From Gemmatimonadetes bacterium T265 (lineage in GTDB: Bacteria; Gemmatimonadota; Gemmatimonadetes; Gemmatimonadales; Gemmatimonadaceae), in assembly GCA_019973575.1 (NCBI GenBank), contig BPUI01000001.1, positions 2,306,342-2,370,341 of the forward strand: DNA of 64,000 bases. Direction: 5' to 3'. A program made the position numbers and the translations under genes. The stretch's first letter is position 1, and each line of letters begins with the position of its first letter. This document shows positions 17,966 to 44,261 of this stretch, one piece after another. The notes beneath the pieces were generated by a model. The model saw nothing but the letters and a program-made list of their open reading frames with translations, made no database searches and was not told the DNA's origin.

Positions 17966-17997
17966 GAAGGCAGCGCGGACGCCCGGGCAACGTCGGC

Positions 17998-18114
17998 CCG
18001 TGTCATCCTGAGCGCAGCGAAGGATCGCTGCCGCTGGGACGATCCCTCGCGGAACCGATGCCGCGGGGTGGTCGCCTCGGACGGCGATCCTTCGCTGCGC
18101 TCAGGATGACACGG
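17998..18114. repeat. Perfect 31-bp inverted repeat, dispersed REP-like sequence
   Basis: Arms 17998-18028 and 18084-18114 are exact reverse complements around a 55-bp spacer. It sits between the convergent ppc and Mn catalase genes. The arm core (GTCATCCTGAGCG... through ...GAAGGATC) is one I recognise from intergenic repeats of many unrelated bacteria; translated by mistake it gives HPERSEGS and SFAALRMT. It can form a strong hairpin in either transcript and so may also terminate both genes. Confidence 0.85.
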
Positions 18115-22491: not shown

Positions 22492-23322
22492 ATGCCTAAC
22501 GAACCCCGCCCCGCCCCGCCCCCCGCCGACCCCGCGTTCGAGGGGCGCGTCGCGCTCGTGACCGGGGCGGGCTCGGGGATCGGGCGCGCGGCCGCGCTCG
22601 CCCTCGCCCGGCGCGGCGCGCGCCTCGTGCTGGGCGACGTGAGCGATGAGGGACTGGCGGGGACGCGCGCCGCGCTGGACGGCGCCGGTGTCGACGCGTC
22701 GCGCGTCCGCGCGGCGCGCACCGACGTGCGCCGGGACGCCGACCTCGCCGCACTCGTCGCGCTCGCCGCCGGCGCCCCGGCCGACGGCTTCGGCCGCCTC
22801 GACTTCGCGCTCAACTCGGCGGGCGTCGGCGGCGTCGAGGCCCGCGCGGCCGACTACCCCGAAGACGACTGGGTGCGCACGATCGACGTCAACCTCACCG
22901 GCGTCTGGCGCTCGATGCGGCACGAGATCCCCGCGATGCTCGCGACGGTCCGCGCGCACGGCGGGACCACGAGCGTCGTGAACGTCGCCTCGGTCGCGGG
23001 CCTGAACGGCTTCCCCCGGCACGCCGCCTACGCCGCCAGCAAGCACGGCGTGATCGGCCTCACGCGCTCGGCCGCGCTCGAGTACGCGGCGTCGGGGGTG
23101 CGGGTCAACGCGCTCTGCCCGGGCTTCACCGCGACGCCGATGGTCGAGCGGATCACGCGGGGCGACGCGGCGCGCGAGGCGCGGCTCACGGCGCGCGTCC
23201 CGTTAGGCCGGCTCGGGACGGTCGACGAGGTCGCGGCGGCGGTGGTGTACCTGTGCTCCGACGCCGCCGCGTTCATGGTGGGGCATGCGATGGTGGTGGA
23301 CGGGGGGATTACGGCGGGGTAG
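22492..23322 (+). CDS. short-chain dehydrogenase/reductase
   Basis: A 276-aa NAD(P)-dependent oxidoreductase of the classical SDR family. The cofactor motif TGAGSGIG is near residue 24, the NSAG motif and catalytic Ser (NVASVAG) follow, and the YAASK active site (Tyr and Lys) is in HAAYAASKHG. The C-terminal GHAMVVDGGITAG is typical. Substrate cannot be assigned. It starts at ATG 22492, which carries the GTTAGGC word in reverse (Met-Pro-Asn), 47 bp after the oxyR frame. It ends before a large imperfect palindrome. Confidence 0.9.
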   Translation: MPNEPRPAPPPADPAFEGRVALVTGAGSGIGRAAALALARRGARLVLGDVSDEGLAGTRAALDGAGVDASRVRAARTDVRRDADLAALVALAAGAPADGFGRLDFALNSAGVGGVEARAADYPEDDWVRTIDVNLTGVWRSMRHEIPAMLATVRAHGGTTSVVNVASVAGLNGFPRHAAYAASKHGVIGLTRSAALEYAASGVRVNALCPGFTATPMVERITRGDAAREARLTARVPLGRLGTVDEVAAAVVYLCSDAAAFMVGHAMVVDGGITAG

Positions 23323-23334
23323 GGGACGGTTGGA

Positions 23335-23667
23335 CCGTTCGCGGTCGTACCGCTGACGGTGGGGCGGCACCCGGGGTGGTCCGTCGCCCGTGTCCGTGAC
23401 CGGCCGGGGTCGGCGGGGCCGCGGGGGTGCTGCAGGGGATGGTGAACCCGGGGTCGGTGCACCCGGGGCAGGGGACGGCCTCGGCCCGCCGGGGCCCGCG
23501 TCGCCAATCGTGAGTCCCGCCGGATCTGGCGTGCTGCCCTCGCCTCCGCCCCGGCCGCATCATCCCCTGCACGATCCCAGCAGCGTCACCGACCCCGGCC
23601 GGTTACGGATCGGCGGGACGGCCCACCCCGGGTGCCGCCCCACCGCCGACGGGACCACCGCCGGCGG
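23335..23667. repeat. Approximately 330-bp imperfect palindrome between convergent genes
   Basis: Three matched blocks share one symmetry centre at about 23501. 23357-23385 pairs with 23617-23645 (28 of 29), 23394-23413 with 23589-23608 (19 of 20), and 23431-23444 with 23558-23571 (13 of 14). Weaker pairing extends outward to about 23335/23667. Because spacing is symmetrical without indels, this is one folded or palindromic element, not scattered repeats. It fills the 423-bp gap between the SDR and S9 peptidase genes; no protein-coding frame there is convincing. It could be a bidirectional terminator, a structured RNA or a decayed inverted duplication. Confidence 0.75.
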
Positions 23668-23745
23668 GACCGCCGTACCCGGCCGTTCACGGACCCGCGG
23701 AACGGAACCAGCGCGGACTTCGCGCCAGCGCCGACGGTACGGCCG

Positions 23746-26025
23746 CTACCGCTTCACCGCGCCGGCCGCGTTCGGCACCGGCGTCACCGGCGGCGCCGCG
23801 TGCAGCCGGTACTCCCGCGGCGGCTCCGCGCCTAACAGGTACCGCACGAAGTAGTCCCACCGCCGCCGGATCATGTACGGCTCCCCGCCGAACCCGTGCC
23901 GCCGGTTGGGGAGCGGGAGCACGTCGACGTCCTTGTTGGCCGCGACCAGCGCGTCGACGAGCGCGAGCGAGTTGTCGGGCGGCACGTTGTCGTCCGCCGT
24001 CCCGTACGCCAGGAGCAGGTGCCCCTTGAGCGCCCCCGCGCGCAGCTGGTTCGCCTGTGCGTCGTAGTTCGTCGTCCCGTCGGCGTTCCGGACCTCGAGG
24101 CCCGTCCACTTCTCCCCCCAGTCGTCCTCGTAGAGGCGGTTGTCGTGGTTCCCCGCCTCGCTCACCCCGGCCTTGAAGAAGTCGGGGAAGCGGAGCATCG
24201 CCGCGGCCGTCGCGTAGCCGCCGCCCGAGTGGCCCCAGACGCCGACGCGCGTCGAGTCGACCCACGGGTACCGCGCCGCGAGCTGGCGCACCGCGGCCAC
24301 CTGGTCGGGGATCCCGTTGTCGCCCATGTCGGCCGCGTACGCCGCGTGGAAGGTCTTGGAGCGGAGCGGCGTGCCTAACGCGTCGAGCTGGACGACGACG
24401 AAGCCGAGCTCGGCCATCGCGCGCGCGTCGCCGCGCACCGGCGAGAAGCTCCGGCTCCCGACCGAGCCGACCTGCGGCCCGGGGTACACGTTCACGACGA
24501 CTGGGTAGCGCCGCGTCGAGTCGAACGCGGTCGGGCGGTAGAGGAGTCCGTACAAATCGGTGCGCCCGTCGCGCGCCTTCGTCGTGAACGGGACCGGCGG
24601 CGTCCACCCCGCGGCCGCGAGGCGCGAGACGTCGCCCCGCGCGAGCGTCTGCGTCACGCGCCCGCTCGCCGCGTCGCGCACGACGAGCGTCGGCGGAACG
24701 TCGGGGCGCGAGTAGCTATCGACGACGTGCCGCCCGTCGGGGGCGAGCGCGACCTCGTGGTCCGCATCCTCCGGACTCAGGAGCCGGACGGCGGGCCGGT
24801 CGAGCGAGGCGCGGTAGAGGTGGCGGAAGTACGGGTCGCGCCCCGGCTCGCGGCCGACCGCCGTAAAGAGCACCGAGCGCGCCCGCTCATCGACCGCGAG
24901 CACCTGCGCGACGTCGCCCGGCCCGGTCGTGACCTGCCGCTTCACGCGCCCGGTCGCGAGGTCGTATAGGTAGAGCTGCCCCCAGTCGTCGCGCTCCGAG
25001 AACCAGAGCACCTCGTTCGTGCCCCAGAGCACGCGCCAGTTCGGCCGGTCGGTCACGACGTCGTAGCCCGACTCGTAGAACGTCGGCGTCGTCTCCGTGA
25101 ACACGTCGCGCACCGCGCCGGTCGCCGCGTCGGCCACGCGCAGCGTCGCGCGCTTGTGGTCGCGCGACGTCGACACGAACGCGAGGCGCGACGCGTCGGG
25201 GCTCCACTCGACGTCGGCCCAGCGGCCGCCGCAGACGATGTGGTCGCAGAGCGTCGAGCGGTGCGCGTCGGGCGCGAGCTGCAGCGGGATCACGCGCGGC
25301 GTCGCGCCCGAGAGGTCGATCACGACGCGGCGGATCGTGCTGACGGCCGAGTCGCCGACGAAGGGGTACTTCCACGCCTCGAGCTGCGGGTGGCCGACGC
25401 GGCCGCCCGTCGTCGTGCGGACGAGGTAGAAGTCGCCGACGGCGCGGTCGTCCTGCTGAAACGTCACGATCTTCTTCGAGTCGGCAGACCAGAGCACGAC
25501 CGCGCGGCCGCTCCGCACCCAGCCGGCGTTGTCGGTCGCGTAGCCGTCGTCCTTGACGCCGTCGGTCGTCAGCTGCACCTCGTTGCCGCCGGCGGAGTCG
25601 CGCACCCACAGGTTGTAGTCGCGGACGAAGGCGACCCGCCGTCCGTCGGGCGAGCGCGCCATGTCGCGGCGCTCGGGGAGCGCCCCCGCTGCGCGCGCGA
25701 CCGCCTGCTGCGCGGCCGGATCGGCGATCGTGTCGGCCGTGCCGCGCGCGGGGTCGACGACGACGAGCCGGGCGTTCGCGCCCGGCGCGTTGGCCGCCGC
25801 AGCCGCGCGGTAGGCGAGCCGGCCATCCGCCAGCCACGACGGCCGGCCCGGCAGCGAGACGAGCGGGACGACGTTCCACGCCATGAACCGTTCGGCGCGC
25901 GCGTAGTCGCTGTCGGCGAGGGCGCGGGGCGCGGGTTGGGCGCCTGCGCGCCCGAGTGGGCCGAGCGCGAGGACGCCCGCGACGGCGGCGCCGCGCGGAC
26001 CGTGAGAAAGCCGGCGACCGGACAT
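23746..26025 (-). CDS. dipeptidyl peptidase IV-like S9 family serine peptidase
   Basis: A 759-aa secreted prolyl-oligopeptidase-family enzyme. An N-terminal signal (SGRRLSHGPRGAAVAGVLAL, cleavage near AGAQ) is followed by a DPPIV beta-propeller region (about 60-500) and an alpha/beta-hydrolase domain. The catalytic triad is read as S600 in GHSGGG, D678 in TADDN and H710 in RRHGFGG. It probably cleaves X-Pro or similar dipeptides from exogenous peptides. ATG 26025 is chosen for the signal peptide; the longer frame to 26286 is not sensible. It converges with the SDR gene across the palindrome. Confidence 0.93.
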   Translation of the reverse strand: MSGRRLSHGPRGAAVAGVLALGPLGRAGAQPAPRALADSDYARAERFMAWNVVPLVSLPGRPSWLADGRLAYRAAAAANAPGANARLVVVDPARGTADTIADPAAQQAVARAAGALPERRDMARSPDGRRVAFVRDYNLWVRDSAGGNEVQLTTDGVKDDGYATDNAGWVRSGRAVVLWSADSKKIVTFQQDDRAVGDFYLVRTTTGGRVGHPQLEAWKYPFVGDSAVSTIRRVVIDLSGATPRVIPLQLAPDAHRSTLCDHIVCGGRWADVEWSPDASRLAFVSTSRDHKRATLRVADAATGAVRDVFTETTPTFYESGYDVVTDRPNWRVLWGTNEVLWFSERDDWGQLYLYDLATGRVKRQVTTGPGDVAQVLAVDERARSVLFTAVGREPGRDPYFRHLYRASLDRPAVRLLSPEDADHEVALAPDGRHVVDSYSRPDVPPTLVVRDAASGRVTQTLARGDVSRLAAAGWTPPVPFTTKARDGRTDLYGLLYRPTAFDSTRRYPVVVNVYPGPQVGSVGSRSFSPVRGDARAMAELGFVVVQLDALGTPLRSKTFHAAYAADMGDNGIPDQVAAVRQLAARYPWVDSTRVGVWGHSGGGYATAAAMLRFPDFFKAGVSEAGNHDNRLYEDDWGEKWTGLEVRNADGTTNYDAQANQLRAGALKGHLLLAYGTADDNVPPDNSLALVDALVAANKDVDVLPLPNRRHGFGGEPYMIRRRWDYFVRYLLGAEPPREYRLHAAPPVTPVPNAAGAVKR

Positions 26026-37728: not shown

Positions 37729-38001
37729 GGGCGCGTTAGGCCGACGTGAACGGGGAGGGCGCGGCGGCGGGCGCGGGGCAAGAGCACGGGGCAGCAGCGG
37801 CGGCCGGTCGGGCATTGCTCGGGGGACGTGCCCCGCCCCTTTCGTCCGGTCAGCCGCCGTCCCGTCCCCTGGGCTCGCTCCGTGCTCTGCCCCGCCCGGT
37901 CCGGAACCGCCCCAAAACCTATCCGCGAGCGCCCACCTGGCACGCCCGCCCACCCACGCCCCACCCGTCGCCGTCCCCGTTCACGTCGGCCTAACGCGCC
38001 C
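37729..38001. repeat. Perfect 28-bp inverted repeat flanking the gap between two MFS genes
   Basis: Arms 37729-37756 and 37974-38001 are exact reverse complements. Each contains one GTTAGGC word (37735, 37989). The left arm begins just after the first MFS stop; the right arm covers the last codons of the convergent MFS gene. The 217-bp interior holds a second imperfect inverted pair (about 37775-37795 with 37873-37897) and no credible gene. It probably folds as a long hairpin ending both transcripts. Confidence 0.8.
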
Positions 38002-43945: not shown

Positions 43946-43992
43946 GGTGGGGTAGGGCAGGGGCCGCGCAGCTGGCGCGGCGGGTGGCACCG

Positions 43993-44155
43993 CGCTGTTG
44001 ATGGGCTGCTGTTGATCGGGCGCTGTTGGTGGGGCGCGGTTGACAAAACGCTGTTGGTCGGGCGGGTCGCTGCCCCGGCCGCTTCGCGGCGGATCGTGGC
44101 CACGACACCGCGTCATCAACAGCGCCCCGTCAACAGCGCCGCATCAACAGCAGCC
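43993..44155. repeat. Array of CTGTTGAT-like units with facing inverted copies
   Basis: Left array: several units of roughly GCTGTTGRTSGGGC (from 43993 to about 44060). Right array: three inverted units (44113-44150). Aligned as arms, 44004-44041 and 44118-44155 match at about 33 of 38 positions. The spacer holds a small hairpin with a TTC loop near 44080-44095. It fills most of the 316-bp gap between the GH2 gene and the hydrolase; no gene is visible. It may be a long terminator hairpin, a protein-binding iteron array or a recombination remnant. Confidence 0.7.
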
Positions 44156-44261
44156 GGTCCACCGCGCCGGATTAACCACGCGGTCCCGCCGCCTCACTCT
44201 CCAGCGCCCCTGCCCCGTCCGCTCCGTCTCCCAGCGCGCGCTTCTTGCCCCACCGTCCCGC

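Follow-up and report, generated by a model that had tools for sequence, protein, structure and literature searches.

A dispersed family of long palindromes at gene 3′ ends in Gemmatimonadetes bacterium T265

The window analysed in this study is a 64,000-nucleotide stretch of the genome of Gemmatimonadetes bacterium T265 (hereafter G000; 5.63 Mb in 6 contigs, assembly 97.6% complete). It contains a long palindrome between two convergent genes, and genes were called throughout by a simple codon-usage caller of our own, not by a standard program. The upstream gene, ending at 23322, is one that we take from its sequence to be a short-chain dehydrogenase/reductase (SDR)-like gene. The downstream gene, which lies on the opposite strand and ends at 23746, presumably encodes an S9/DPP4-like peptidase, and homologues of this gene are present in 43 of the 58 relatives from the same bacterial family. 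The features of the locus are as follows.

22492..23322, plus strand: SDR-like gene (codon-usage gene caller, ORF list), the stop codon of which abuts the element
23323..23680, no strand: palindromic element of family A, long form, about 358 nt, centred at 23501 (arm complementarity, genome copies)
23322..23453, plus strand: left arm, 132 nt, 76% complementary to the right arm with no gaps
23328..23372, plus strand: three degenerate 15-nt units at the outer end of the left arm (23328-23342, 23343-23357 and 23358-23372; periodicity and motif matches)
23454..23548, no strand: central core, weakly palindromic, with 80-98% identity among the five long copies compared
23549..23680, minus strand: right arm, complementary to the left arm without gaps
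23634..23660, minus strand: outer 15-nt-unit motif of the right arm (motif match at C1:2329975-2330001, minus strand)
23746..26025, minus strand: convergent S9/DPP4-like peptidase gene (gene caller, ORF list), the stop codon of which lies 65 nt beyond the element

A scan of all centres of the 64-kb window, with 170 positions per arm, ranked the centre at 23501.0 at the top, with 110 of the 170 symmetric positions paired, compared with 87 of 170 at the next-best centre and a mean of 52.9 (s.d. 7.8) over all centres. Three blocks pair in register around this centre: 28 of 29 positions at 115-143 nt, approximately 19 of 20 at 87-107 nt and 13 of 14 at 56-69 nt. In the innermost 50 nt or so on each side, pairing is barely above chance. 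The symmetrical palindrome that a sequence-only reading of this DNA had described, with three blocks sharing one centre and no gene inside, is therefore real; its extent, given there as 330 bp, is somewhat greater (about 23323-23680), and the convergent orientation of the gap had gone unmentioned. Folding, which that reading had proposed as a check, yielded a very stable predicted RNA structure for 23323-23745 (−309.6 kcal/mol, z −9.2; none of 100 shuffles equalled it). No U-tract terminator-like site was present between positions 22800 and 24300 of the window, and a search of a plasmid collection with the element returned no match. The strongest lag in the outer left arm is 15 nt (37 of 500 shuffles were as high), as it is in the outer right arm (30 of 500). 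The same lag leads in four of five other copies tested, exceeding all shuffles in L127 only, and L126 shows none.

A DNA search of G000 with the element identified five other long copies, which are 79-82% identical to it on the better strand; one of them, on contig C2, is without part of the left arm. The outer motif recurs at 15-nt spacing, and pattern searches with it revealed shorter members of the family, yielding 75 matches at two or fewer mismatches (control, 12) and, in a second search, 65 matches at three or fewer mismatches (control, 24). From these matches, many of which fall several to an element, 20 loci were kept by eye as palindromic or arm-like; the remainder, mostly with two or three mismatches, were judged to be chance, most without individual inspection. 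All 20 loci are counted below, including two half or degraded ones (L137 and L140) and a diverged one (L141). This search for further copies, also proposed in the sequence-only reading, resolved the question of what the palindrome is, adding five long and about fourteen shorter or remnant copies. The two readings offered there, a long hairpin RNA or cruciform maintained by pairing and an inverted duplication decaying by point mutation, had both missed the main fact, namely that the palindrome is one member of a repeat family scattered through the genome at gene 3′ ends.

Members of family A range from about 40 to 370 nt and have the same ends throughout. The 20 loci comprise six long copies, one of ∼141 nt, three of ∼100 nt and ten of ∼40-60 nt or remnants, and one-arm remnants occur among them. 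The smallest members are simple hairpins directly after a stop codon, such as that at C1:924580 with its four-base loop, and resemble two-way terminator stems in this position. At least four intermediate copies (L127-L130) retain the inner sequence of one arm only, and long-to-short decay by partial loss of the centre is therefore likely for those copies. The shortest members may be either remnants or ancestors of the long forms. At two loci (L125:3558-3632 and L123:3669-3746), the upstream reading frame enters the element, and the similar C-terminal tails, corresponding to the last 25 or so codons, are made of the repeat.

Convergent gaps account for sixteen of the 20 loci. Another three come just after the 3′ end of a single gene, and the diverged copy C1:401990-402030 is the only one in a divergent gap. 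In a 464-kb sample of G000 that includes the window, only 48 of 387 neighbouring gene pairs are convergent; the bias is thus pronounced (binomial p = 9e-12). For 19 of the 20 loci, at least one called gene has its 3′ end at or beside the element, the position of the G+C-rich stem-loop in an intrinsic terminator. The location of family A is well supported; its function we infer.

Strong hairpins, defined by z below −5, were also counted irrespective of family in gaps of at least 60 nt. In the G000 sample, they are present in 6 of 20 convergent, 10 of 96 co-directional and none of 47 divergent gaps; this census includes the window, and the element studied here accounts for one of the six convergent gaps. 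In 100 kb taken from each of four relatives (G016, G022, G071 and G023, in this order), strong hairpins were found in 6/7, 0/6, 4/5 and 2/3 convergent gaps, in 6/22, 1/23, 2/12 and 4/22 co-directional gaps, and in 1/13, 0/9, 0/9 and 1/10 divergent gaps, which sum to 12/21, 13/79 and 2/41, respectively. With the five genomes pooled (convergent 18/41, co-directional 23/175, divergent 2/88; convergent versus divergent, p = 6e-9), the frequency of strong hairpins tracks the number of gene 3′ ends that face the gap (two, one or none). The absence of strong hairpins from the six convergent gaps of G022 (L197-L201) differs from their presence in four of five in G071, which belongs to the same genus (g23). 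One of the two exceptions among the 41 divergent gaps of the relatives is a tandem-unit palindrome of G016 (L192:8881-8975, z −14.9), in a gap called divergent. The palindromes shown for the relatives are unlike family A in sequence, and several consist of short tandem units of 7-20 nt.

Other convergent gaps of G000 also contain palindromes unrelated to family A. A second long family, D, of about 330 nt, gave 47 matched rows in G000, which we read as approximately 26 places; among ten long copies examined, six are in convergent, four in co-directional and none in divergent gaps. Part of family D lies in the window at 37787-37979, and the family shows mirrored double changes. Two further families are represented in the window. 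The palindrome at 17990-18112 lies between convergent genes and belongs to family B, which carries the string CCTGAGCGCAGCGAAGGATC; this family has many copies in the sampled stretches, co-directional gaps included. The family E palindrome at 43946-44261 has a 14/28-nt periodicity and is related to L150:15698-15912, which itself matches L146:3213-3260.

Searches beyond G000 returned no second genome with family A. The 358-nt element had no real match by DNA in the 58 relatives; in 11 of these, there were short matches only (about 24-53 nt, E 2e-4 to 1e-3), the surroundings of which had no palindrome by eye. The outer motif had no real match in 118 relatives, two of which contained a single match each with one mismatch. 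In 84,980 GTDB species, the motif was found in 24 stretches scattered across phyla, with one match each except in L106, and these were judged to be chance or convergence. BLAST searches of the long elements against the GTDB species gave short matches only, in a collection that may omit near records. L106:6657-6771, from a Chloroflexi MAG, is a near-perfect 15-nt tandem array of 7.7 copies that is possibly in frame in a gene; its self-complementary unit is almost the same as that of family A, a likeness that is probably due to convergence.

One family A member lies between genes that, named from their sequences, we assume to be a glycosyltransferase gene and maf, and this junction could be compared across the maf loci of 29 relatives. 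Nineteen of these loci contain the glycosyltransferase gene and ten gave no hit; the two genes are adjacent and convergent in 13 of the 19 loci and at least 500 nt apart in the other six. Among the 13 junctions, that of G016 has a 171-nt gap with an unrelated palindrome built from 9-nt units, that of G019 has a 131-nt gap with another unrelated palindrome, and a third has a gap of 24 nt with a small hairpin. At the remaining ten, the genes overlap or touch, or no palindrome is present (the gap is 84 nt in L177, and a stop was not found cleanly in L172). The two long palindromes are located as follows.

L173:1320-1492 and L189:1360-1492: long palindromes unrelated to family A at the glycosyltransferase/maf junction of two relatives

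Most of the other relatives thus leave hardly any gap at this conserved pair. The family A element found there is therefore best read as a lineage-specific gain, the junction having been filled independently in relatives. At the window locus, an SDR homologue was found beside the DPP4-like gene in none of 29 relatives' loci, and therefore this locus offers no empty-site comparison.

Whether pairing is kept was assessed in five long copies of family A, excluding L006 on account of its incomplete left arm. Ninety-one per cent of the arm pairs are standard. Paired double changes occur at 13 pairs, against a shuffle mean of 8.0 (13 of 1000 shuffles were as high), and further pair types number 37 against 30.1 (0 of 1000). 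Relative to the consensus, 11 cells are changed on both sides, 9 of which are still paired, and independence predicts approximately 3.5; among 68 one-sided changes, 20 keep the pair and 48 break it. In ten copies of family D, 12 both-sided changes were observed against 3.9 expected, and 9 double-change pairs against 3.0 (0 of 500 shuffles); further pair types are unremarkable (42 against 40.5, 109 of 500 shuffles), and of 99 one-sided changes, 46 keep and 53 break the pair. With pair-breaking changes outnumbering pair-keeping ones among the one-sided changes of both families, nothing indicates RNA selection on G-U intermediates. The excess of double changes fits selection, shared ancestry of the copies, or a process that copies one arm onto the other. 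These results bear on both earlier readings. A structure maintained by pairing is supported in part, by the pairable arms and by double changes in excess of shuffles in both families. Decay by point mutation is evident too, from the 48 pair-breaking changes, and internal deletions are present in at least four copies.

On balance, we read family A as a lineage-specific interspersed palindrome at gene 3′ ends that probably serves as a two-way terminator or end-cap, one that lacks the usual U-tract. Transcription of either flanking gene would yield an RNA that folds into a highly stable hairpin, ending or capping transcripts that arrive from both sides, so that the two genes would be kept from running into each other. 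Termination could occur by hairpin-induced release or with the assistance of Rho; alternatively, the hairpin could protect the 3′ end after trimming. Because no U-tract follows the stem, these routes are favoured over a textbook intrinsic terminator. The copies would have spread by some copying process, the arms would sometimes have been re-matched by copying one onto the other, and long copies would lose part of the centre to become short terminator-like hairpins. In favour of this explanation are the multiple copies, the 3′-end bias, the terminator-like small members, the excess of double changes and the gain at the glycosyltransferase/maf junction. Against it count the lack of a U-tract, the one divergent locus, the one-sided changes, among which pair-keeping ones are not favoured, the 360-nt stem, which is far beyond the needs of termination, and the fact that at the glycosyltransferase/maf junction most relatives do without a hairpin, their genes overlapping or touching.

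The chief rival, less probable but a serious possibility, is a selfish or inert MITE-like palindrome of no benefit to the host, which would land anywhere, survive only after stop codons, where it does the least harm, and then decay. In its favour are the dispersal of copies that have matching inverted ends, the occurrence of one-arm remnants and of derivatives with internal deletions, the lack of a family match in relatives and the absence of the element from their glycosyltransferase/maf junctions. However, no target duplication was seen by eye in the flanks of the 20 loci, the edges of which are not sharply defined; end motifs pair only within one element, and no larger element with the same ends, 1-4 kb apart, was noticed in the 97.6% complete assembly; and RAYT-type Y1 transposase (PF01797) had no match in G000, whereas 6 of 14 control genomes were positive. 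Simple purging might also leave some strong hairpins in divergent gaps, yet G000 has none in 47, although purging there could be strong because divergent gaps hold promoters. As an explanation, matching of the arms at the DNA level, in which quasi-palindrome correction during replication uses one arm as the template for correcting or extending the other and the symmetry needs no RNA function, appears unlikely. Double changes at about three times expectation in two families (11 versus 3.5 and 12 versus 3.9), no excess of G-U intermediates and the unrelated palindromes with short-period tandem arms in relatives all point to arm matching, but this process leaves the ∼80% identical copies at many loci and the 3′-end bias unexplained, and shared ancestry of the copies could also raise the double-change count. 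We regard a long structured regulatory RNA or a member of a known non-coding RNA family as very improbable: the predicted fold is indeed very stable, but Rfam had no match at the gathering score in the window and none at E 1 or better over the element, no promoter-like site was found near the element (by a test that is weak outside E. coli-like promoters), and placement after stop codons extends across the whole family.

A bolder proposal, which we advance tentatively and hold to be rather doubtful, is that palindromes arise again and again at the convergent gene junctions of this bacterial family. There, short units would be amplified and mirrored in place by transposase-free hairpin-templated copying, and each lineage would thereby acquire its own unrelated families, which would then reach other 3′ ends and work there as interchangeable two-way barriers to transcripts. 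This predicts three unrelated palindromes in three genera at one glycosyltransferase/maf junction, as observed.

MITEs such as ERIC are dispersed, non-coding inverted-repeat elements that fold into hairpins. Family A is likewise dispersed, with terminal inverted repeats and no coding capacity, but differs in that neither a target duplication nor an autonomous partner was seen and in its wide size series with shared ends. ERIC is mentioned in PMC2267715, in which 92 repeat families were reported. Intergenic stem-loop repeat families (PMC1590033, PMC2267715) are similarly species-specific repeats that fold as hairpins, are intergenic and lie at gene 3′ ends, more often in convergent than in divergent gaps, a preference described for stem-loops in all bacteria examined (PMC1590033). 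Family A has the same properties, being repeated, intergenic and convergent-biased with a shared fold; the difference is that several unrelated long families share one genome here. The stable intergenic stem-loops of low-GC Firmicutes are 30-50 nt long (PMC1590033, PMC2267715), whereas family A reaches about 370 nt, a distinction drawn from published descriptions.

The uptake-signal terminators of Neisseria and Pasteurellaceae (PMC1852404) are also built of a lineage-specific motif in inverted pairs, enriched between tail-to-tail genes and presumed to terminate transcription; the uptake-signal motif, however, generally has 1,000 or more copies per genome, whereas family A occupies about 20 loci, lacks a U-tract and has stems that are far longer. 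REP/BIME elements mobilized by RAYT (PMC2817692), with which REPINs (PMC3116915) are grouped as palindromic extragenic repeats, are likewise inverted extragenic units, mostly without a gene of their own, but usually exceed 100 copies per genome, while family A has far longer arms and G000 has no PF01797 match. Bidirectional intrinsic terminators (PMC1852404, PMC1590033) also place a hairpin between convergent genes near both stop codons, and an E. coli study ties inverted repeats after stops to terminators (PMC6060812); family A differs in having no A-tract/T-tract flanks, its small members ending in only about 2-3 T by eye, and in long forms that are several times larger. In a 2026 survey of perfect inverted repeats (PMC13155455), the word stem gemmatimonad is absent from the main text, and searches of the open-licence PMC literature yielded no publication that describes these families or deals with palindromes in this group of bacteria, which is weak evidence of absence. 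The kind of element is already known; as far as the literature searched extends, what is new is the length, the number of unrelated families in one genome and the turnover at one junction.

These results reveal one genome with several unrelated families of giant palindromes and one conserved convergent junction that carries different palindromes in different genera. The birth and copying of palindromes without a visible transposase are a testable question. If the elements are two-way terminators, they would provide a natural series of about 40 to 370 nt for studying how G+C-rich bacteria without U-tracts stop convergent transcription.
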